Assembly (NCBI GenBank): GCA_030426515.1
Contig: JAUHYM010000004.1
Coordinates: forward strand, 1-45,196
DNA from: Actinomycetes bacterium
GTDB taxonomy: Bacteria; Actinomycetota; Actinomycetes; Actinomycetales; Microbacteriaceae
DNA: 45,196 bases
Direction of reading: 5' to 3'
Shown here piece after piece: positions 12,855-41,949 of this stretch (within the stretch, counting starts at the first letter, position 1; every line of letters begins with the position of its first letter). The position numbers and the translations under genes were made by a program. Below the pieces are notes generated by a model. It did no database searches. It saw only the letters and a program-made list of their open reading frames with translations, and was not told the DNA's origin.

Positions 12855-14312
12855 ATGAGCCGAGCGTCTGCACGGGCCGTCAGCTGGCGCACGCGCCTCC
12901 TCGACGGCTGGGCAGGTCTCTGGCGGTGGGTGCTGCTCGCTCTCGGCACCGTTCTGGCCGCGCATTTCATCCTCGAGCGCGCCGACGGCAACGCGATAGC
13001 GACCGCCGCGGTGCTCGGGGGACTCGTCATCGGTGTCGTCTTGACGTTCTCGACACCGCTGGCGATTGCGCTCATGGCGACGCCCGCCTTGTTCATCGTG
13101 CAGCGCGTCGGATTCGGCGGTGGAGACCTCTCGGTCTCGGATGCCGCGCTGGCGGGAGCGTTCGGTGCCGCCGTGCTCTTCGGCAAGTACCCCTACAGCC
13201 GTCCGATGAAGCTGTTGCTGGTGTTCAACCTGGTCTACCAATTCGCCACGCTCTTCACCGTCATCGTCAATCCTCAGGTCGAGAACACGGTCGAGTGGTT
13301 CCATGCATGGCTCCTGATCTCGGGTGCGCTGATCGTCGGGTGGGCGCTGGGTCGAGGTGGCTTCGCACGGACGGCCCTGCTGATGATTGTGGGCGCTGGC
13401 GCGGTCATCGCCGCGGGTACGGTGCTCACTGCCGTGTTCCAGTACGCCTCCGGTGACTTCGGTCCCGTCTACCCGGTGTGGCCGCTCGTCATGCACAAGA
13501 ACGCTGCCGGTACGCTGATCGCGTTCGCGGCGATGACCGCGTATGTCAACCCGCCGTGGCTGGCCATTCGTCGCACGGCGGCGGTGTCCATCCTCTCCCT
13601 CCTGGTCGTCGCGCTCCTCGCGACTCAGTCGCGCCAGGCACTCATCGGACTCGTCTTCGGTGTGGTCGTCGTGGCGCTCCGCGCCCGCTCCGTCGGCCGT
13701 TCGCGGTGGCCGCTCCTGCTCGTGATACCCGGAGTCTGGGTCATCGTTGCCGCGGTGATCGAGCAGATCGAGTCGCAGAACCAGCACAACTCGTTCTTCC
13801 AGCGTCTGGACTGGCTGCGCGAGGTGTACGCGTTCTGGAAGCACTCGCCGATCTTCGGTCACGGGCTCCGCTTCTGGTATTACGAGCCAGCAGTCCCCTA
13901 CCAGCCGCCGCAGGCGGAGGTGGAGGTCATCGCGTCTTCGGGCTTGGTCGGCCTGGCTGCGTTCATCGTGATGTGGATCGGCATCCTCGTGGTGCTGTGG
14001 CGGTTGGATCCGACATACGGCACCCTGGCGCTCGCCGTGGTGGGCGGCCGCATCGCCCAGGCGCAGTTCGACCTGTTCTGGGTGGCGGCGCAGGTGTCGA
14101 TTCCGTTCGTGATCGCGGGGATCTGTCTCGGAGCGATGGCGCTCAGAGACACCGGTACCGCGGCCGAGGTGCAGGTGGACGGCGCGAAGGCTCCGCCTGG
14201 TGAAGGGGTGACGGTGGGGACCGTGACGTACGATGGAGGACATCCGACGAGGGGCGCACCCGGTGCGGACTCAGTAACGACACCGCCGGGAGGGTCGCAT
14301 GGAAGTGACTGA
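12855..14312 (+). CDS. O-antigen ligase/polymerase-like membrane protein (Wzy-type)
   Basis: A 485-residue integral membrane protein with roughly ten to eleven hydrophobic segments between residues 25 and 440 and a large loop after VIEQIESQNQHNSFFQRLDW. The segment LLATQSRQALIGLVFGVVVV and the following loop fit the Wzy_C/O-antigen ligase superfamily. It probably polymerises lipid-linked repeat units outside the membrane, or ligates glycan to an acceptor. The C-terminal 50 residues are hydrophilic and probably cytoplasmic. The stop overlaps the start of the BY-kinase/Wzz gene by 14 bases, which fits the usual pairing of polymerase with chain-length regulator. Confidence 0.8.
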   Translation: MSRASARAVSWRTRLLDGWAGLWRWVLLALGTVLAAHFILERADGNAIATAAVLGGLVIGVVLTFSTPLAIALMATPALFIVQRVGFGGGDLSVSDAALAGAFGAAVLFGKYPYSRPMKLLLVFNLVYQFATLFTVIVNPQVENTVEWFHAWLLISGALIVGWALGRGGFARTALLMIVGAGAVIAAGTVLTAVFQYASGDFGPVYPVWPLVMHKNAAGTLIAFAAMTAYVNPPWLAIRRTAAVSILSLLVVALLATQSRQALIGLVFGVVVVALRARSVGRSRWPLLLVIPGVWVIVAAVIEQIESQNQHNSFFQRLDWLREVYAFWKHSPIFGHGLRFWYYEPAVPYQPPQAEVEVIASSGLVGLAAFIVMWIGILVVLWRLDPTYGTLALAVVGGRIAQAQFDLFWVAAQVSIPFVIAGICLGAMALRDTGTAAEVQVDGAKAPPGEGVTVGTVTYDGGHPTRGAPGADSVTTPPGGSHGSD

Positions 14313-15846
14313 CTACCTCCGCGGCATCCTGCGCCATTGGCTGGCGATCCTTCTGATGACTCTCGTCGGGCTGGGTGCCGCGTTCGGTTGGGTGCTCCTG
14401 CAGACACCGGTCTACGAGGCGACCTCTGTCGGCCTCGTGCAAAGCCGTTCCTCTGCGGCTGCCGACGACGAGAACGGTCAGCTCCTCCAGCCGGCGTTCG
14501 ACTCGATCGCGCGCGGGAAGGTCCCGACCTACCTCGACATGGCGACGTGGCGGGTGGTGGCGGACGGCGCGATCGCCGAACTCGGACTCGCCACCACGCC
14601 CGAGGCCGTCGTGCAGCGCATCACCATCGAGAACCCCAACGAGACGTCCATCATCCGCGTCACCGCGCAGGGCGAGACCCCCGCCGAGGCGGCGGCGCTG
14701 TCGGAGGCGTGGCTGACCTCGCTCGCCTCCACGATCGACGCCGTCGAGGGCGAAGAGGGGGCCGAGGGGTCGTCCCCGGTCACGATCTTCGTGACGTCGG
14801 CCGCGGCTCTGCCGCAGCGGCCGATCTTTCCCGACATCCAGACCGCGATGATCGTGGGCGCGGTCCTCGGCCTCGGTCTCGGCATTGCGTTCGCGCTCAT
14901 GCGCACCGTGTCCGATCGCCGCATCCGGGCTGCTGAAGACGTCGAGTCGCACACGTCGCTGCCGGTCGTCGGCGCGATCCCGAGTGCGCCGGGCGTATCC
15001 GAGCGGACGATCTTCGACACCGCGACCGGCGGCGACCGCGGGGCGAAGTTCGCGGTCTCAGAGTCGTTGCGTGCGCTGCGCACAAACCTGCAGTTCATGG
15101 ATGTCGACAACCCACCGCGCACGATCGTCGTCACCAGCCCGCTGCCCGGGGACGGCAAGTCGACGATCGCCTGCAACCTCGCGCACACGCTCGCGACCAA
15201 CGGCCAGCCGGTCGTCATCGTCGATGGTGACCTGCGGCGCCCGAAGGTGGCCGAGACGATCGGTGTGCCCGGTGGGGCGGGGCTCAGCGACGTCCTCTCG
15301 GGCCGCGCCGATCTGTCCGACGTGCTGCAGCGCGCACCCGGTGTCGAGCACCTGTTCGTGCTCACCGCCGGGAGCACGCCTCCGAACCCGAGCGAGGTCC
15401 TCGGATCCGATCGCATGCGCAAGCTCCTCGCCGACCTGGCCGGGCACGCGACGGTCATCATCGATGCACCGCCGCTCCTCCCGGTCACCGACGGCGCGGT
15501 GCTCACGCACCAGTCCGACGGTGCGCTGATGGTCATCACGGCCGGCAAGACCACCTATGACCTGCTCGACAAGGCCCTGGGGACGCTGACCAAGGCCGGG
15601 GGCCGCGCGCTCGGCGTCGTGCTGAACAAGACGCCGCTGCGCGGGCCGAACTCGTCCGCGTACTCGTACGAGTACCGCCGCGAGTACGGTCCGGCCGAAG
15701 AGCAGGTCGCGCCGAAGAAGCGCTCGACCGCGAGCGCGGACCTCGACGACATCTTCGCGGACACCGACGCCGAGTCCGCTCCGCCTGCGGCGGCGTCGCC
15801 GCCGACCCCCGCCCGCACGGTTCGCGAGCGCGCTCGCCAGGGGTGA
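14299..15846 (+). CDS. Wzz-type chain-length regulator fused to BY-kinase
   Basis: A 515-residue polysaccharide co-polymerase with tyrosine autokinase domain. Membrane segments at about 14-34 and 183-202 enclose the Wzz external domain. The cytoplasmic kinase carries Walker A GDGKST (284-289), Walker A' VVIVDGDLRRP (305-315) and Walker B VIIDAPPLLP (386-395). A tyrosine cluster at Y455, Y457, Y459 and Y463 is the autophosphorylation tail, followed by an acidic, Ala/Pro-rich extension. It controls chain length by cycles of phosphorylation, with the Wzb-like phosphatase at 33310 as likely counterpart. GGGAGGG just before the ATG is a good ribosome binding site. The start overlaps the polymerase gene and the end overlaps the next GT4. 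Confidence 0.92.
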   Translation: MEVTDYLRGILRHWLAILLMTLVGLGAAFGWVLLQTPVYEATSVGLVQSRSSAAADDENGQLLQPAFDSIARGKVPTYLDMATWRVVADGAIAELGLATTPEAVVQRITIENPNETSIIRVTAQGETPAEAAALSEAWLTSLASTIDAVEGEEGAEGSSPVTIFVTSAAALPQRPIFPDIQTAMIVGAVLGLGLGIAFALMRTVSDRRIRAAEDVESHTSLPVVGAIPSAPGVSERTIFDTATGGDRGAKFAVSESLRALRTNLQFMDVDNPPRTIVVTSPLPGDGKSTIACNLAHTLATNGQPVVIVDGDLRRPKVAETIGVPGGAGLSDVLSGRADLSDVLQRAPGVEHLFVLTAGSTPPNPSEVLGSDRMRKLLADLAGHATVIIDAPPLLPVTDGAVLTHQSDGALMVITAGKTTYDLLDKALGTLTKAGGRALGVVLNKTPLRGPNSSAYSYEYRREYGPAEEQVAPKKRSTASADLDDIFADTDAESAPPAAASPPTPARTVRERARQG

Positions 15847-25295: not shown

Positions 25296-27107
25296 TCAGC
25301 GTAGATCCCCAAGCTCGACCAGTCGTGCAAATTCCTCGCTTGACTGGCGTACCTCAGTGAACGTCCCGCGGGCGTTGATGCGACCGTCCTTGAGAAACAC
25401 GAGATCGTCCGCTCCACGGACGGTCGACAGTCGATGGGCGACAATGATCACTGTCAACTGTCCGTGCAGGTCGGCGAGGGTATCCGTAATCTCGCGTTCT
25501 GTCATGTTGTCAAGCGCGGATGTCGCCTCGTCGAGCACGAGTACCGCCGGCCGATGGTACATCGCGCGCGCCAGACCTAACCGCTGGCGTTGTCCGCCTG
25601 ACAAGCGCACCCCCCGTTCGCCGACCACCGTTTCCATACCGTGAGGGAGCTGCGCGACGACATCCGTCAGTCGTGCCATCGATATAACCTCGGCTACACG
25701 GGAACGGTCGATCAGCTGGTCTTGGACGCCGAACGCCACGTTGGCTGCCAACGTGTCGTTAATGAGGAACACGTCTTGCGGAACCACGCCGAGAGATGCG
25801 TACCAGGTCGCCGGATCATCGGTGACCGATCTTCCGCCGCACTCGACTTCGCCAGATGTGGGCGAGACGAGACCGAGGATCAAATCGAGCAGTGTGCTCT
25901 TTCCCGCCCCGCTTGATCCCACAAACGCCACGGTGCTGTGGCGAGCGATCGTAAGGGTGACACCGTGCAGCACTGGCTCTTCGGCATCGGGGTATCGGTA
26001 GGTGACATCCCGCAATGTGATGTCTCCTGAGTATCGTCGCCCATCAGTCGGACGCTCGTCATGAGTGCCCCCGGTGTCCAGTTCAGCCACGGACGCCGAA
26101 ACGATGCGCAGACCCGCCCGGTTTGCGCGGATCGTGGCCATCGACGCTGCAACCCGGTTGAGAGTGGGCAGACCGCGAAGGGAAGCTGCGGCGAAGACAC
26201 CGAGCACGGTGACCGCCTGCCCCGGCGTGCCGGTGTTGAACAGAACGATTGAGATGCCGGCGATCGTCAGAACGAAGCCGATCTCGAGCGCGTGGCGGGG
26301 CGCTTCAGAGACGATGGCCAACATCCGCCCAGCGTGAGCACGACGAAGACGGGCTCGCTTGTATCCCTCAACGAATTGTTGTGCGCTCGACGTCAGCCGC
26401 GCTTCGCGGAACCCGTTGAGACCTGGCATGAGGTAATTCCACGCTTCGAGGCTCGCATCGGCGAGTTCCTCGCCGATCAACGCTTGCTTGTGACGGAGCG
26501 CGCGTTGAAGTCCGAAGACGAAGCAGGCGAAGATGACAACCGTCATCAGCGTCACGAGAGGAGCCGTGATCGCGAGAACGAGGACGATACCGCCGAGCAG
26601 AAGCAAGTCTGTGATGAGGCTGAGCATCGACAAGAGGACGGATGTCGCCTGGGCCGTACTGTCATTGACGTTGCGGTAGACCTCGCTCATGCGCCGAGCG
26701 CGATGGTCGGCGTATGGCGCGAGCATGTACCGCCGCATCAGTTCCGTGGCCGACAACGCCGAGATGCGGGAAGTTCGGCCGATCAGCCACCACTTGAACG
26801 CGATCGTGGCCCCGCTCTTCACGACAAAGAGCAGAGCGATGACGCATGCGATGGTGGGGATGAGAATTGCGGGGTCCGTGGTACCTGCCATCTCTTCGAG
26901 CGCTGAGATAGTTGCGGAACCTCCCGCGGTTCCTGTCGCGAGCTGCGTGAGCGGCACCATCGCAGCGACGCCCAGCATGTCCATGACTGCAAGAACAATC
27001 GAGACGGCGATCGTCGCCGTCAGCCAGCCAGCAGGGCGGGTTCCCGCCATCCGGAGCATGAGTCGCAGGTGCGCGATCATTCCCGGATCGTCGGCTGTCG
27101 TGCCCAT
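25296..27107 (-). CDS. ABC exporter, PglK-like flippase candidate
   Basis: About 603 residues with fused membrane and ATPase domains. About six transmembrane segments lie between residues 28 and 310. The nucleotide-binding domain has Walker A GSSGAGKST (397-405), signature LSGGQRQR (502-509), Walker B VLVLDEATSALD (522-533) and switch His558. One chain per half indicates a homodimer. In this context the closest functional model is PglK, which flips undecaprenyl-pyrophosphate-linked oligosaccharide across the membrane. No Wzx-type flippase is seen in the window. GGGGGAGGTGAGC before the ATG is a very good ribosome binding site and fixes the start. The frame upstream to 27815 is antisense shadow. 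Confidence 0.87.
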   Translation of the reverse strand: MGTTADDPGMIAHLRLMLRMAGTRPAGWLTATIAVSIVLAVMDMLGVAAMVPLTQLATGTAGGSATISALEEMAGTTDPAILIPTIACVIALLFVVKSGATIAFKWWLIGRTSRISALSATELMRRYMLAPYADHRARRMSEVYRNVNDSTAQATSVLLSMLSLITDLLLLGGIVLVLAITAPLVTLMTVVIFACFVFGLQRALRHKQALIGEELADASLEAWNYLMPGLNGFREARLTSSAQQFVEGYKRARLRRAHAGRMLAIVSEAPRHALEIGFVLTIAGISIVLFNTGTPGQAVTVLGVFAAASLRGLPTLNRVAASMATIRANRAGLRIVSASVAELDTGGTHDERPTDGRRYSGDITLRDVTYRYPDAEEPVLHGVTLTIARHSTVAFVGSSGAGKSTLLDLILGLVSPTSGEVECGGRSVTDDPATWYASLGVVPQDVFLINDTLAANVAFGVQDQLIDRSRVAEVISMARLTDVVAQLPHGMETVVGERGVRLSGGQRQRLGLARAMYHRPAVLVLDEATSALDNMTEREITDTLADLHGQLTVIIVAHRLSTVRGADDLVFLKDGRINARGTFTEVRQSSEEFARLVELGDLR

Positions 27108-27214
27108 GCTCACCTCCCCCGTGGCGGCGCGAGAGCCACCGCGCCACACCGATCCTACGTGGCGCGCGATGCCCTGCCGTGGGCCGCCGATCGTGACAAT
27201 TGTGTAAAGCGCTG

Positions 27215-27242
27215 TTGGATCGGGTATGGAATCCATTAGCAT
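27215..27242 (+). promoter_or_regulatory. Promoter of the Tat-type secreted protein gene
   Basis: TTGGAT (27215-27220) and TAGCAT (27237-27242) are separated by 16 bases, close to a sigma-A type promoter. It is one of the few promoters here with both elements. Transcription would start near 27249, giving a leader of about 95 nt. Confidence 0.5.
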
Positions 27243-27250
27243 GGGGTTTC

Positions 27251-27268
27251 GTCCCGTCGCGACGGGAC
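27251..27268. promoter_or_regulatory. Perfect 18-bp palindrome at the predicted transcription start
   Basis: GTCCCGTCGCGACGGGAC reads the same on both strands with no loop. It lies just downstream of the TAGCAT box, a position expected for a repressor operator. As RNA it could also form a short 5' hairpin. The bound regulator, if any, is unknown. Confidence 0.5.
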
Positions 27269-27344
27269 ACGCTGTGCGGTCTGGGGAGAGCCGCACCAGC
27301 GCACAGCACTCCCCTCCACACGGAAACTTCAGGAGGGTTCCACC

Positions 27345-27893
27345 GTGAGCGAGAACAACGAGGTTGCGCCCGAGCAGCCCTCGGGCATCAGCCGCCGCAC
27401 TGTCACCAAGGCCATGGCGTGGGCCGTTCCCGCCATCGCCGTCGCTGCACCTGTACCCGCGTTCGCGGCGTCTGGGCCCAAGCCCATCGTCTCGGTGGGT
27501 ACTGCGTGCAAGAATCCGGGTGGCAGTTGCCATGTCGACGTGCTCAAGTTCGGCTACTCGGTACCAGTGACGCTCATCAACAACAGCAGCGAGGACATCT
27601 GGATCGGGACGCCACAGGTTGTGGCACAGAGCCCGTCCACACCAGTGTTCACGGGGGCCCTGTATCCAGCGGGGGCAGATTACCTCCCTGCGAGCGGCGG
27701 CACACTTCTCGTCTACTTTGTCGCACAGTCCACCAACAGTGCGAACATACAGAACGGATCCATCACGTTCGAGGTTGATTGGTTCCACGACGCGGCGAAG
27801 ACTGATCCCGACCACCTCGATGACCCGATCGTCGTCACAACCACCTGGGCGGCCACTCCGCCAAGCTGTAACTGCGGTGGTCCGACGCCGTAG
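27345..27893 (+). CDS. Tat-type secreted protein of unknown function
   Basis: A 182-residue protein from a GTG with AGGAGGG nine bases upstream. Residues 1-41 form a signal peptide of twin-arginine type: SRRTVTK (16-22), a hydrophobic AMAWAVPAIAVAAPVPAFA, and probable cleavage after AFA at 41. The mature part (about 141 residues) is rich in Val, Thr, Ser and Asn like an immunoglobulin-like beta sandwich. Two Cys lie near the start (C55, C62) and CNC (175-177) near the end, so disulfides are possible. No sorting motif or anchor is seen. It stands alone between the ABC exporter and the minus-strand glycosyltransferase operon, with its own promoter. Similar proteins are common in Microbacterium. 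Confidence 0.75.
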   Translation: MSENNEVAPEQPSGISRRTVTKAMAWAVPAIAVAAPVPAFAASGPKPIVSVGTACKNPGGSCHVDVLKFGYSVPVTLINNSSEDIWIGTPQVVAQSPSTPVFTGALYPAGADYLPASGGTLLVYFVAQSTNSANIQNGSITFEVDWFHDAAKTDPDHLDDPIVVTTTWAATPPSCNCGGPTP

Positions 27894-27929: not shown

Positions 27930-29045
27930 TCACAGCGTTTGGACCGCGCTCGCCATCTCCGAGGCGCGCGTGTTCCAGTCGGGCGGCTTCCCCTTACCCA
28001 CCGGAGCATCGGCGGCCGCGAACGCTGACGCGACTGCCGCCTTGAAGGTCGCGACATCGGCGACCGTGATGCGCGGGTCGTCGGCGTCGCGGAAACCCGC
28101 CACCGGTGTGGAGACGACGGGGCGGTCCACCGCCTGGTACTCGTACAGCTTGATCGGGTCGAGGCTGTCGGTGAACGCGTCGACCACGTGGGGGACGACG
28201 AGCACGTCGGCGTGCTGCAGGTAGCCGATCACGGCATCCGCGGGTCGGGCCCCCAGAAGCGCGACGTCGGCGTCGCGGAGGCGCCCGGTCGCGTCGTGGG
28301 CGAGGGCGTTCGGGCCGACCAGCACGAGCGTCGCCTCCCCGGCGATGCCGCACGCGATGTCGACGCACAGGTCGACGTCGAGCCGATCGGCGTGCAGCGT
28401 GCCGACGTACATTGCGGTCTTCCCCGCGGGCAGGTCGGCCGGCCGGGGTCGGGGCGTCCGGTAGGCGGCGACATCCACGCCATTGCGGATCAGCGCGATC
28501 GGCGCCGCGCCCGGCGGACGTGAGGCGCTCTTGCGACGCTGGAGCTCCGGCGAGCAGGCGACGACCTGGGCGGCGTGGGCGAGGAGGAACTCCTCCGCCT
28601 GTCGCAGGCGCTCCCGCTCGGCATCGGGGCGGTCGGCCGCCAGCCAGTCGTCGGTCATGTCGTAGAGCGTCGGCCAGCCGGTGCGGCGTGACACGGTCGC
28701 GCCGGTGAGGTCGTTGACCCACAGCAGCGGCTGAGTCATGCCGAGTCTTCGTGCCGCGCGCTCGATCTGTCGAGACAGGCGCTCATCGGCGCGCGCATCG
28801 ATTCGCCGGGGGAGCGCCTTGGCGGGACGCATCGTCCACAGCCGATCGATCTCGTGCCGCGCGCGTGGCGGACGCGCACCCTCGGGGCGAGCGCCCCGCC
28901 GCAGCTGGTGGAGCGGATCGGCCGGCGGCTCGACGAACAAGACGCGAAGATCCGGGTCCGCCGCCAGCATCCGCGACAGGAGGTGCTGGTTACGCCGCCA
29001 CACGCCGTCCCAGGCCTCGAGCGAGACCACGACGAGGTCGGTCAC
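27930..29045 (-). CDS. Glycosyltransferase, GT4/GT1-like
   Basis: About 371 residues from a GTG at 29045 that overlaps the upstream stop (GTGA). DLVVVSLEAWDGVWRRNQHL is the opening typical of GT-B enzymes of the TuaH/WsaE-like kind. YDMTDDW and IRNGVDVAAY separate the domains. The C-terminal domain has AMYVGTLHADRLDVDLCVDI, and DSLDPIKLYEYQAVDRPVVS holds the donor-binding K-x-x-E-Y motif. The family often transfers hexoses to cell-surface glycans. It is the last gene of the four-gene minus-strand operon and converges on the Tat-type protein gene, with a 36-base gap. Confidence 0.85.
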   Translation of the reverse strand: MTDLVVVSLEAWDGVWRRNQHLLSRMLAADPDLRVLFVEPPADPLHQLRRGARPEGARPPRARHEIDRLWTMRPAKALPRRIDARADERLSRQIERAARRLGMTQPLLWVNDLTGATVSRRTGWPTLYDMTDDWLAADRPDAERERLRQAEEFLLAHAAQVVACSPELQRRKSASRPPGAAPIALIRNGVDVAAYRTPRPRPADLPAGKTAMYVGTLHADRLDVDLCVDIACGIAGEATLVLVGPNALAHDATGRLRDADVALLGARPADAVIGYLQHADVLVVPHVVDAFTDSLDPIKLYEYQAVDRPVVSTPVAGFRDADDPRITVADVATFKAAVASAFAAADAPVGKGKPPDWNTRASEMASAVQTL

Positions 29046-30103
29046 GCGTGCCCGCTCGCGGTGCGGATGGCGGCGCGATACAGCGCGTCGGTGCCGTTCA
29101 CCTGGGCGTCCAGCGTGAAGCTGCGTGCCCGCGTCTCCTGCTGCTGGCGGGCGATCTGCGCGCACCCGTCGGGGTCGCGCGCGATCTCGGCCAGCAGCGC
29201 TCCGGCCGCGCGCGTGTTGCGCGGGTCGAACAGCGGCGAAGGCGTGACATCCTCGAGCAGCTCGATGTGGCCGCCGCCGCGCGCGGCGACGACGGGCAGC
29301 CCCGCGCCCATCGCTTCGAGGACCGTGAGCCCTAGGCCCTCGGTCGGGCAGGGGGCGAGCAGCACGCCAGCCGTGCTCATCAGCTCGGGGATGTCGGAGC
29401 GCTGGCCCAGGAACCGCACGGACCCCGACAGGCTCAGCCCGTCGACCAGCCGCTCGAGGGGCGCCCGTTCGCCGCCGTCGCCGGCGATGTCGAGCATCCA
29501 CCCGTCGCGCGCCAGGCCCGAGGCCGCGAAGGCGCGGATGCCGATCTCGGTGCGCTTCTCGGGCTGCAGGCGCTGGGCGATCAGCACGGTCTGCTGCGGA
29601 TTCCGCGGCACGGCCGCCCCTTCGGGCAGCCCGCTGTGCACGACGGTGCTGGGCACGCGGATCGCGTCGGCGACCGCGTCGCTGATCGCGAGGTCCGCGT
29701 CGGCGATGCGGTCGACCAGTGCATCCCAGCGGACCGGCCCGAGGCCCCCGCGCGGATGCGCGAAGTGGCGGGTGGAGACGATCGCCGGTCGGTGCGGCAG
29801 CGCACGCAGTGCGGCGGCGGCGAGGTCCGCGGCGGTCATGTGCGTGTTGACGACGTCGGCGTCCTGCGCGCGCAGCAGCGCGGCCTTCACACCGGCGGTC
29901 GTCCGCCCGCGCAGGAAGGGGATGCCGGCGGCGGTGAGCTCGGGCTCCATGCGCTCGGGTGCGCCCCCGATCACGACCACCCGGTGCCCCGCGGCGCGCT
30001 GCGCGAGCGCGAGAGTGAGGATGAACCGTTCGACGCCGGCGAAGCGGTCGGAGCGCACGGCGTGCACGATGCGCAGGGGCGCGGAACCGTGCTCACGGGC
30101 CAT
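29042..30103 (-). CDS. GT4 family glycosyltransferase
   Basis: About 353 residues from the ATG at 30103. LRIVHAVRSDRFAGVERFIL opens the N-domain, and TVLIAQRLQPEKRTEIGIRA and PTEGLGLTVLEAMGAGLPVV (E-x7-E type) complete the GT-B fold. A GTG at 30145, overlapping the previous stop, would add 14 residues and is an alternative start. The ATG is preferred because TACGCT at 30115-30110 on the minus strand lies 6 nt before it, as in leaderless genes here. Gene order and overlap tie it to its neighbours as one operon, with an internal promoter. Confidence 0.87.
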   Translation of the reverse strand: MAREHGSAPLRIVHAVRSDRFAGVERFILTLALAQRAAGHRVVVIGGAPERMEPELTAAGIPFLRGRTTAGVKAALLRAQDADVVNTHMTAADLAAAALRALPHRPAIVSTRHFAHPRGGLGPVRWDALVDRIADADLAISDAVADAIRVPSTVVHSGLPEGAAVPRNPQQTVLIAQRLQPEKRTEIGIRAFAASGLARDGWMLDIAGDGGERAPLERLVDGLSLSGSVRFLGQRSDIPELMSTAGVLLAPCPTEGLGLTVLEAMGAGLPVVAARGGGHIELLEDVTPSPLFDPRNTRAAGALLAEIARDPDGCAQIARQQQETRARSFTLDAQVNGTDALYRAAIRTASGHA

Positions 30104-33309: not shown

Positions 33310-33954
33310 ATGGCCGAGCAGTTCACCGTCCTCACCGTGTGCACCGGCAACATCCACCGGTCGGCTCTCGCCGACGCCCTGCTTCGTCAGTGGGCCGCGT
33401 GGTACCTGCCCGCCGAGGTGGCAGCCCAGGTCCACGTGCACAGCGCGGGGTTCGCGGCCCCGGTCGGCGCCCCGATGGGGGAGGATGCCCGTCACATCGC
33501 CGCGCAGCTGGGCGGGGACGGCTCGGGGCACACCGCGACCCAGATCACCGATGCGCTCATCCGCGACGCCGACCTCGTCGTCACCGCCTCGTGCCGCCAG
33601 CGCGACGAAGCACTCAGCCGGGTGCCGGCCGCCCTGCGGCGCACCTTCACGATGCGCGAGGCGGGCCGCGCCGCGGCATCCCTTCCCGCGCGTCCCCGCC
33701 CACAGACGGTGGCCGATCTGCGGCACACCGTGCATCTGCTCGCCGATCACCGCAGCGCCGCGCCGGGCGAGGACGACGTGATCGACCCGCAGGGGCACGG
33801 GCGCGACGCCTACCTGCAGATGATCGGCGAAGAGGTGCCGGCGCTCGCGCACCTCGGGCGTGCGCTGTTCGGCATGTCGGAGCCCGATGTGCTCGCGTAC
33901 GCGCAGGCCGCCGCGACCCCCGAGACTCTCCTGCCCGCGGCGGAGCCCGCGTGA
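33310..33954 (+). CDS. Low-molecular-weight protein-tyrosine phosphatase (Wzb-like)
   Basis: A 214-residue protein, longer than the usual 150-160 residues of the family. The P-loop is CTGNIHRS (11-18) with nucleophile C11 and R17. The usual second cysteine of C-x-G-N-I-C-R-S is replaced by H16. The general-acid D159 lies in DVIDPQGHGRDAY (compare D-P-W/Y in classical enzymes). It probably dephosphorylates the tyrosine tail of the BY-kinase at 14299, although the two genes are 17 kb apart. It is followed with a 4-base overlap by a GT4 gene. The extra length lies around residues 120-150 and at the C-terminus. Confidence 0.87.
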   Translation: MAEQFTVLTVCTGNIHRSALADALLRQWAAWYLPAEVAAQVHVHSAGFAAPVGAPMGEDARHIAAQLGGDGSGHTATQITDALIRDADLVVTASCRQRDEALSRVPAALRRTFTMREAGRAAASLPARPRPQTVADLRHTVHLLADHRSAAPGEDDVIDPQGHGRDAYLQMIGEEVPALAHLGRALFGMSEPDVLAYAQAAATPETLLPAAEPA

Positions 33955-36986: not shown

Positions 36987-37036
36987 TCGGGCTCTATCGC
37001 TGCACGCGGCCCTGCGTCCCGTTGCCCTGTGGTCCC

Positions 37037-37082
37037 GCACGTTTCGTGCCGCGCTGACCCTGCGCGCCGCGTCGGCGCGGCG
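37037..37082 (+). terminator. Tandem short hairpins between the two lipoprotein genes
   Basis: GCACG-TTT-CGTGC (37037-37049) and CGCCGCG-TCGG-CGCGGCG (37065-37082) are perfect stems of 5 and 7 bp, the second with a stable UCGG-type loop. They could end the upstream transcript or insulate the second gene. No U-tract follows. Confidence 0.35.
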
Positions 37083-37124
37083 GCATCCGTCATGCTGGGA
37101 GGAGGGACGACGAACGGAGCCGAC

Positions 37125-37886
37125 GTGACGCGCAGAATCGCCTCGTGGGGAGCTGGTGCCGCGGCGCTCACGCTGACCGCCGCTCTCGCCGGCTGCGCCA
37201 CCGGGACCTCGGTCGACCCCGGGTCCAACGGGCAGGAGGTGCCCGACGGGGGCAACGAGCAGCAGATCCTCGTCGATGCCGCCTGGCTGGAATCGGGGCG
37301 GTCGATCGGTCTCATCACCGAGGGCAGCTCGTCGTGCGTTCCCACCACTGACGAGGTGACGGTCACCGACGCCGGTGCGCTCGCCGTCGTCCTCGCCGAT
37401 CCCGCCGAGGACGAGCCGTGCACGCGCGACATGGCGCCACGCATCACCCTCGTCGCGGTGCCGGACGGCGTCGACCCGCAGGACGACCTCACCATCGACG
37501 TGTCCGGGCCGGGCTATGAGGGCGCCGTGACGATCAACGGGGTGCCGGGGCTCTCGCCCGACGACGCCGACGAGACCCAGCTACCGCCCACCGCCGGCTG
37601 GACCCAGCAGGACGGGCAGTTCATCATCCTCAGCTACGGCAGCTCCACCTGCGAGCCCGTGTTCGAGGGGGCCGAGACCACCGCCGAATCCGAGATCACG
37701 GTCACGTTCGCCGATCTGGACGAGACCACCCCCTGCACCGCGGATCTCGCACCGCGGACCACCCTGGCCTTCGCCGACGGGCATCGCGACCAGCCCGACG
37801 TCGACCTGGTGCTCACCGGCGGCGGCTTCGACGACGTCACGCTGAAGATCTACGGGGCGAACTGGAGCCCGATCCCGCCGGGCTGA
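37125..37886 (+). CDS. Lipoprotein with two repeated Cys-pair modules (paralog 2)
   Basis: About 253 residues from a GTG at 37125; an ATG at 37092 is an alternative. The signal peptide ends in ALAGC (lipobox), giving a lipid-anchored surface protein. Two modules match those of the gene at 36273: GSSSCVP with CTRDMAPR, then GSSTCEP with CTADLAPR. The pair clearly arose by gene duplication on top of an internal duplication. No enzyme motif is visible. It lies 112 bases before clpC in the same direction but probably forms a separate unit with the first lipoprotein gene. Confidence 0.75.
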   Translation: MTRRIASWGAGAAALTLTAALAGCATGTSVDPGSNGQEVPDGGNEQQILVDAAWLESGRSIGLITEGSSSCVPTTDEVTVTDAGALAVVLADPAEDEPCTRDMAPRITLVAVPDGVDPQDDLTIDVSGPGYEGAVTINGVPGLSPDDADETQLPPTAGWTQQDGQFIILSYGSSTCEPVFEGAETTAESEITVTFADLDETTPCTADLAPRTTLAFADGHRDQPDVDLVLTGGGFDDVTLKIYGANWSPIPPG

Positions 37887-41235: not shown

Positions 41236-41949
41236 ATGTCAGACCCGCAGCCGCGCCGGCGCAAGCACTCGCCCGGGGTGTACCGCAGGCGTCGGCTCGT
41301 CCTGCTGCTGATCCTCATCGCCGTCGGCGTCGGCGTGTGGCTGCTCATCGCCCAGCCGTGGCGGGCCGCGGGGGAGCCCACCGCGCTCCCGCCGGTCTCG
41401 CCGACCGCGACCACCGCCCCCACGATCGACGAGCTGCCGTTCGGCGTCAGCACGGTCGCGGCGGAGCAGGGGGAGGAGGATGCGGAGCCGACCGCCACAG
41501 CGACCGCATCCGCGGCGCCCAGTCCGTCGCCGAGCATCACCGCGCAGGCCTGCCGGCCCAGCGACCTCGAGGTCGCTGCGCTCACCGACAAGGACAGCTA
41601 CGGCGGGGGCGAGAATCCGCAGTTCTCGATCCAGCTCACCAATCACGGTGAGGAGTGCATCATGAACGTCGGGACGACCACGCAGGCGTTCACGGTGACC
41701 AGTGGGAGCGACACGTGGTGGCGTTCGACCGACTGTCAGAGCGATCCGAGCGACATGATCGTCATGCTCGAGTCGGGGCAGACGGTGACCAGCGGCGAGC
41801 CGCTGGAGTGGGACCGCACCCGCTCGTCGGTCGAGACCTGCGAGGCAGAGAGCCGGCCGACCGCCGGCGGCGGGGGCGCGACCTACCACCTGGAGGTCGA
41901 GATCGGCGGCGTCGTCAGCGATGTCACGACGACCTTCCAGCTCTGGTGA
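41236..41949 (+). CDS. Membrane-anchored extracellular protein, unknown function
   Basis: A 237-residue protein. A basic N-terminus (RRRKH, RRRR) and one transmembrane helix at about residues 21-40 (LVLLLILIAVGVGVWLLIAQ) indicate a type II membrane protein with its main part outside. A Pro/Thr/Ala/Ser-rich linker runs from about 45 to 100. The C-terminal domain has four cysteines (in QACRPS, EECIMN, TDCQSD and ETCEAE), beta-rich composition and the look of a DUF4232-like immunoglobulin fold. No enzyme motif is seen. It is a stand-alone gene common in Microbacteriaceae between argA and radA. Confidence 0.75.
   Translation: MSDPQPRRRKHSPGVYRRRRLVLLLILIAVGVGVWLLIAQPWRAAGEPTALPPVSPTATTAPTIDELPFGVSTVAAEQGEEDAEPTATATASAAPSPSPSITAQACRPSDLEVAALTDKDSYGGGENPQFSIQLTNHGEECIMNVGTTTQAFTVTSGSDTWWRSTDCQSDPSDMIVMLESGQTVTSGEPLEWDRTRSSVETCEAESRPTAGGGGATYHLEVEIGGVVSDVTTTFQLW

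Follow-up and report, generated by a model that had tools for sequence, protein, structure and literature searches.

The window analysed here is a 45,196-nt stretch of DNA and forms a contig of a genome that is 73% complete. It carries a surface-polysaccharide block with genes for Wzy, Wzz/kinase, pyruvyl transferases, glycosyltransferases and an ABC exporter, flanked on one side by ClpC and RadA genes. Within this block lies a gene for a protein with a Tat signal. The features of this gene, its leader and its neighbours are as follows (SD, Shine-Dalgarno sequence).

25296..27107, - strand: ABC transporter, MsbA/PglK-like; divergent, conserved neighbour of the Tat-signal gene.
27215..27242, + strand: promoter with a weak -35 box TTGGAT (27215-27220), a 16-nt spacer and a -10 box TAGCAT (27237-27242); the -10 box is matched in homologs.
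27251..27268, + strand: perfect 18-bp palindrome GTCCCGTCGCGACGGGAC, directly after the predicted start point; as RNA, predicted hairpin P1 with 7 bp and a CGCG loop.
27271..27307, + strand: predicted hairpin P2 displaying CUGGGGAG, with outer stem GCUGUGCG/CGCACAGC or alternative stem GUGCGGU/GCCGCAC (27274-27296); counterparts with other stems in homologs.
27281..27288, + strand: leader motif CTGGGGAG, conserved; the C6 loops of 6C RNA may pair here.
27312..27337, + strand: predicted SD-sequestering hairpin of CCCUCC (27312-27317) and GGAGGG (27332-27337); similar hairpin in one other homolog (L045).
27345..27893, + strand: Tat-signal protein of 182 aa with a GTG start at 27345; predicted Ig-like beta-sandwich.
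27930..29501, - strand: GT4-type glycosyltransferase; convergent, conserved neighbour of the Tat-signal gene.

The distribution of the gene was investigated by scanning genome contigs. An alignment query worked, while a single-protein query gave no matches. Homologs were carried by 42 of 369 genomes of the genus, and those with an organism name in the alignment-based scan were mainly from Microbacterium, with a few from Agromyces and more distant actinobacteria. Among the 29 homologs with enough flanking sequence, 23 kept the divergent ABC transporter beside the gene, and 19 of these 23 loci also kept the convergent glycosyltransferase. Because this synteny is kept, the Tat-signal gene can be regarded as a conserved resident of the polysaccharide locus. 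The tie to the glycan locus proposed in the first-pass annotation was thus upheld: homologs mostly sit in the same place. No relatives were found in phage and plasmid collections. In one relative the gene is tandemly duplicated (G310:C1:3389445-3390840), with TGGGG kept in one leader and lost in the other. Elsewhere in the window, the product of 33310-33954 (+ strand) resembles, by eye, a low-molecular-weight tyrosine phosphatase and is likely the partner of the Wzz/kinase encoded at 14299-15846.

The protein has a twin-arginine motif SRRTVTK, of the form S-R-R-x-hydrophobic-x-K, followed by a hydrophobic region and an AxA cleavage site (AFA-AS). It is therefore predicted from its sequence to be exported by the Tat system, as a surface or a secreted protein. 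In the window, the next product with clear signs of export is a lipoprotein-like ORF (37029-37886) outside the glycan block, beside clpC. The signal peptide SRRTVTKAMAWAVPAIAVAA (window 27345-27480, + strand) is nearly invariant across species, and the mature part is far more variable. The AlphaFold2 model showed a beta-sandwich with a pLDDT of 82. Comparison of this model with known structures gave no confident relative (best Foldseek E 3.6e-3, TM-scores mostly <0.5), and the 182-aa protein had no match among Pfam and NCBIfam families. Very similar signal peptides, of the RRTVVKGAAWSVP type, occur in a group of small Microbacteriaceae Tat proteins. The glycan-locus family is set apart from them by RRTVTKAMAWAVP signals, a mature domain of its own and the G-loop leader, although a few members of the wider RRTVVKGAAWSVP-type group likewise carry G-loop leaders. 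A second Tat protein of the same genome (L013; G000:C206, - strand) has a similar signal peptide, and upstream of it lie a G-loop hairpin GGTGTC-GGGGG-GACACC and CTGGGG. More exported proteins may therefore share this leader type.

The -35/-10 pair of the window scored below the threshold of the promoter scan. A -10 box TACGSTANCAT is common to the homologs, with TACGSTADCAT exact in 26 of 42 and TAGCAT in the window copy; it sits 63-153 nt before the start codon and precedes motif-rich leaders. The weak promoter of the window gains support from this conservation. The promoter, the perfect 18-bp palindrome and the leader of about 95 nt described in the first-pass annotation were all present at their positions, and separate control of the gene, also proposed there, is backed by its own promoter and its own leader. 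A promoter-plus-motif search of 119 genomes gave five matches, all five at this gene, against four for a reversed control pattern. No wider regulon with the same promoter and motif appeared in these genomes; the family gene alone was found. A Sigma-B-like sequence GTGTAA-N14-GGGTAT is present at 27202-27227 (+ strand), just upstream of the -10 box TAGCAT. It was set aside, since the homologs share a different -10 box (TACGSTANCAT).

A short G tract was strongly enriched in the leaders of the family. CTGGGG occurred 52 times in 42 leaders, compared with 4.6 +/- 2.1 in dinucleotide shuffles, and TGGGG occurred 1.64 times per leader, compared with 0.11 upstream of 188 control genes from the genomes of relatives. 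A TGGGG copy was located at the SD position in 57% of leaders and 3% of control genes. 'CU' preceded GGGG in 52 of 93 tracts, and the tract was mostly exactly four G. The upstream TGGGG was flanked by stems (combined p 3e-11 for 28 non-redundant leaders against shuffled flanks; this and all other leader p values are somewhat optimistic because the sequences are related), and control or random TGGGG sites gave p 0.39 in the same test. The stems displaying the loop motif differed between species, as in CCGAUGU-UUGGGG-ACAUCGG, CGGCUCU-AUGGG-GGAGCCG and GGAUCGAUU-UGGG-GAUCGAUUC. These patterns suggest that the conserved, working part of the leader is probably a loop-displayed (C)UGGGG, of which the ribosome-binding site usually carries another copy. 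Three leaders had no TGGGG although their genomes have 6C. In one homolog (L035), as judged by eye, the loop UGGGG doubles as the ribosome site of an upstream ORF; no such ORF is present in the window copy. No Rfam covariance model matched the leader. A G-quadruplex was set aside as an idea, most leaders having only 1-3 G4 tracts.

The leader of the window has a single motif copy, located 57-64 nt upstream of the start codon and not at the SD. Its ribosome site is a canonical AGGAGG, within the SD AGGAGGG at 27331-27337. In the predicted fold (z -2.65), the outer stem of P2 pairs 27271-27278 with 27300-27307, and the SD is fully paired with CCCUCC (27312-27317). As a speculation, this C tract (with adjoining CUCCCC) could pair instead with the loop GGGGAG at 27283-27288, which would free the ribosome site. 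Such a switch is read from the fold of a single sequence with a counterpart in L045 only, and confidence in the SD-sequestering hairpin is low for that reason.

GGGG was predicted to be unpaired more often than other G in the leaders (0.51 vs 0.29), and C tracts able to pair with it in cis were not enriched (5 vs 9.3 expected). A free G tract that finds no C-rich counterpart in cis suggests a trans-acting partner. The sRNA 6C, with two hairpins bearing C6 loops, was found in the same genome (L135; G000:C172:2010-2091, - strand), scoring 44.1 bits with RF01066, just under the Rfam cut-off, and 88 bits with the genus model R1. Model R1 detected 6C with C-rich loops in 26 of the 29 homolog genomes searched, and most of the others fit a strict hairpin pattern. 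Since 6C is nearly genus-wide, co-occurrence does not discriminate, and its presence or absence was discarded as a test. Predicted pairing with 6C loop 2 was stronger for the leaders than for control upstream regions (median -12.5 vs -8.8 kcal/mol, p 1e-12). With scrambled 6C loops, the leader-control difference was only about 1.6 kcal/mol. The predicted pairing of the window leader with 6C was moderate, at -11 kcal/mol. In mycobacteria, 6C/B11 is reported to repress its mRNA targets by way of G tracts close to the ribosome site (PMC10470900, PMC12395582), as backed in one case by compensatory mutations (PMC12395582). Its targets include the 5' UTRs of eccB4, pks5 and udgL and, in M. marinum, cell-surface glycolipid synthesis (PMC10470900, PMC12395582). 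For 6C of C. glutamicum, a 2013 paper gave no function (PMC4046766). The family leaders resemble the mycobacterial targets in having a 5'-UTR G tract that is complementary to a C-rich loop and near the ribosome site. The leader is accordingly a candidate 6C-type target that would be translationally repressed in trans, a reading to which we assign a probability of about one half. Against the pairing stand the leaders that lack TGGGG, the single motif, moderate pairing and canonical ribosome site of the window leader, the loop length (C6 in 6C, usually G4 in the leader motif) and the preceding 'CU', which complementarity does not explain. The preference for 'CU' may mark a loop-closing pair or recognition by a protein.

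The palindrome had been described in the first-pass annotation as operator-like, and its perfect symmetry and its position just after the predicted start point fit the operator of a local transcription factor overlapping that point. A search for further copies gave none within two mismatches in the 73% complete genome, and three-mismatch places were fewer (two) than for a reversed control pattern (five). The palindrome was absent from all 41 homologous leaders, while promoter and motif were kept. Perfect palindromes of at least 18 bp are also not rare: the 45-kb window contains two, and eight occur in 349 kb from relatives. The other one in the window, CAGCGACCTCGAGGTCGCTG, is 20 bp long and lies inside an ORF (41559-41578). 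A single-site autoregulator would be compatible with the lack of a second copy in a genome of this completeness. Nevertheless, the uniqueness of the palindrome and its absence from homologous leaders make the operator very unlikely. The annotation had named two observations that would count against its reading, loss of the palindrome upstream of homologs and occurrence of the gene in unrelated contexts, and only the former was made. In the predicted RNA fold, the palindrome forms this leader's own 5' hairpin. The hairpin was not significant when judged against the composition of the 32-nt segment that contains it (p 0.11). A subset of homologs has unrelated 5' hairpins, with a family-wide combined p of 2e-4 that is partly owed to the second hairpin.

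Such hairpins bear on another explanation, in which the leader is a passive expression device: with a strong promoter, mRNA-stabilising 5' hairpins and a G-rich SD or standby site for the ribosome, an abundant surface protein would be made constitutively at a high level. 5' hairpins stabilise the ompA mRNA of E. coli, and here too the mRNA of an envelope protein has a 5'-terminal hairpin. The conserved promoter, the 5' hairpins in part of the family and the G-rich motif at the SD position in 57% fit this device. It leaves unexplained why a hairpin loop distant from the start codon should keep a UGGGG copy, and the ribosome site of the window copy is predicted to be fully paired. Compared with ompA-type hairpins, the conserved loop sequence and the SD copy point beyond stability, and we consider a purely passive role rather improbable. 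It is also conceivable, if still unlikely, that 6C is irrelevant and that the UGGGG-loop hairpin acts as a sensor or as the target of an RNA-binding protein. The motif (CUGGGG, mostly with exactly four G) is more specific than 6C complementarity requires, and its hairpin display is conserved with differing stems. A large conserved aptamer-like core is missing, however, and no such Rfam family was found. CsrA binds GGA in loops, but to our knowledge it is not found in Actinobacteria.

As the conserved part of the leader is the UGGGG loop motif with its SD repeat, the gene is probably controlled at translation and not via the DNA palindrome. Promoter, motif, hairpin display, SD-position copy and synteny are conserved, and 6C is encoded in the same genome. 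We infer the pairing of leader and 6C, its sign (repression) and any triggering condition. In the proposed mechanism, transcription from the gene's own promoter would yield an mRNA whose leader is folded, and the 5' hairpin of that leader, derived from the palindrome, may protect the transcript. A hairpin loop would display (C)UGGGG, of which most relatives have a further copy at the ribosome-binding position. Translation would then be repressed in trans when the G tract or tracts pair with the C6 loops of 6C, the mode of action of 6C/B11 in mycobacteria. More tentatively, and with doubt prevailing, the leader could be a new cis-regulatory RNA element of Microbacteriaceae. Its bipartite UGGGG arrangement (loop and ribosome site) would be fitted to both C6 loops of 6C, by kissing and by SD block, and would link the polysaccharide locus and the exported protein to the 6C network.

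Few actinobacterial sRNAs are as widespread as 6C, and the direct evidence consulted here for its targets comes from mycobacteria. A conserved and unusually clean candidate target leader in Microbacterium would offer a simple test system for 6C. If true, it would point to an ancient role of 6C in controlling the cell surface. The small exported protein is a conserved part of a polysaccharide locus, where it may act as a glycan carrier, a binding protein or an assembly protein, and its role is now open to inquiry.

The two C6-loop hairpins found in the genome of the window agree with 6C RNA (RF01066) of Corynebacterium and Streptomyces, which is a possible partner and not the leader itself. Like the mycobacterial 6C/B11 targets, the leader has a 5'-UTR G tract near the ribosome site, and its genome encodes an sRNA of that family with C-rich loops. 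The motif is shorter here (UGGGG), lies in a conserved hairpin loop and often has a second copy at the SD. Compared with those targets, this is a new genus and a new target protein, and the regulation is one that we infer.
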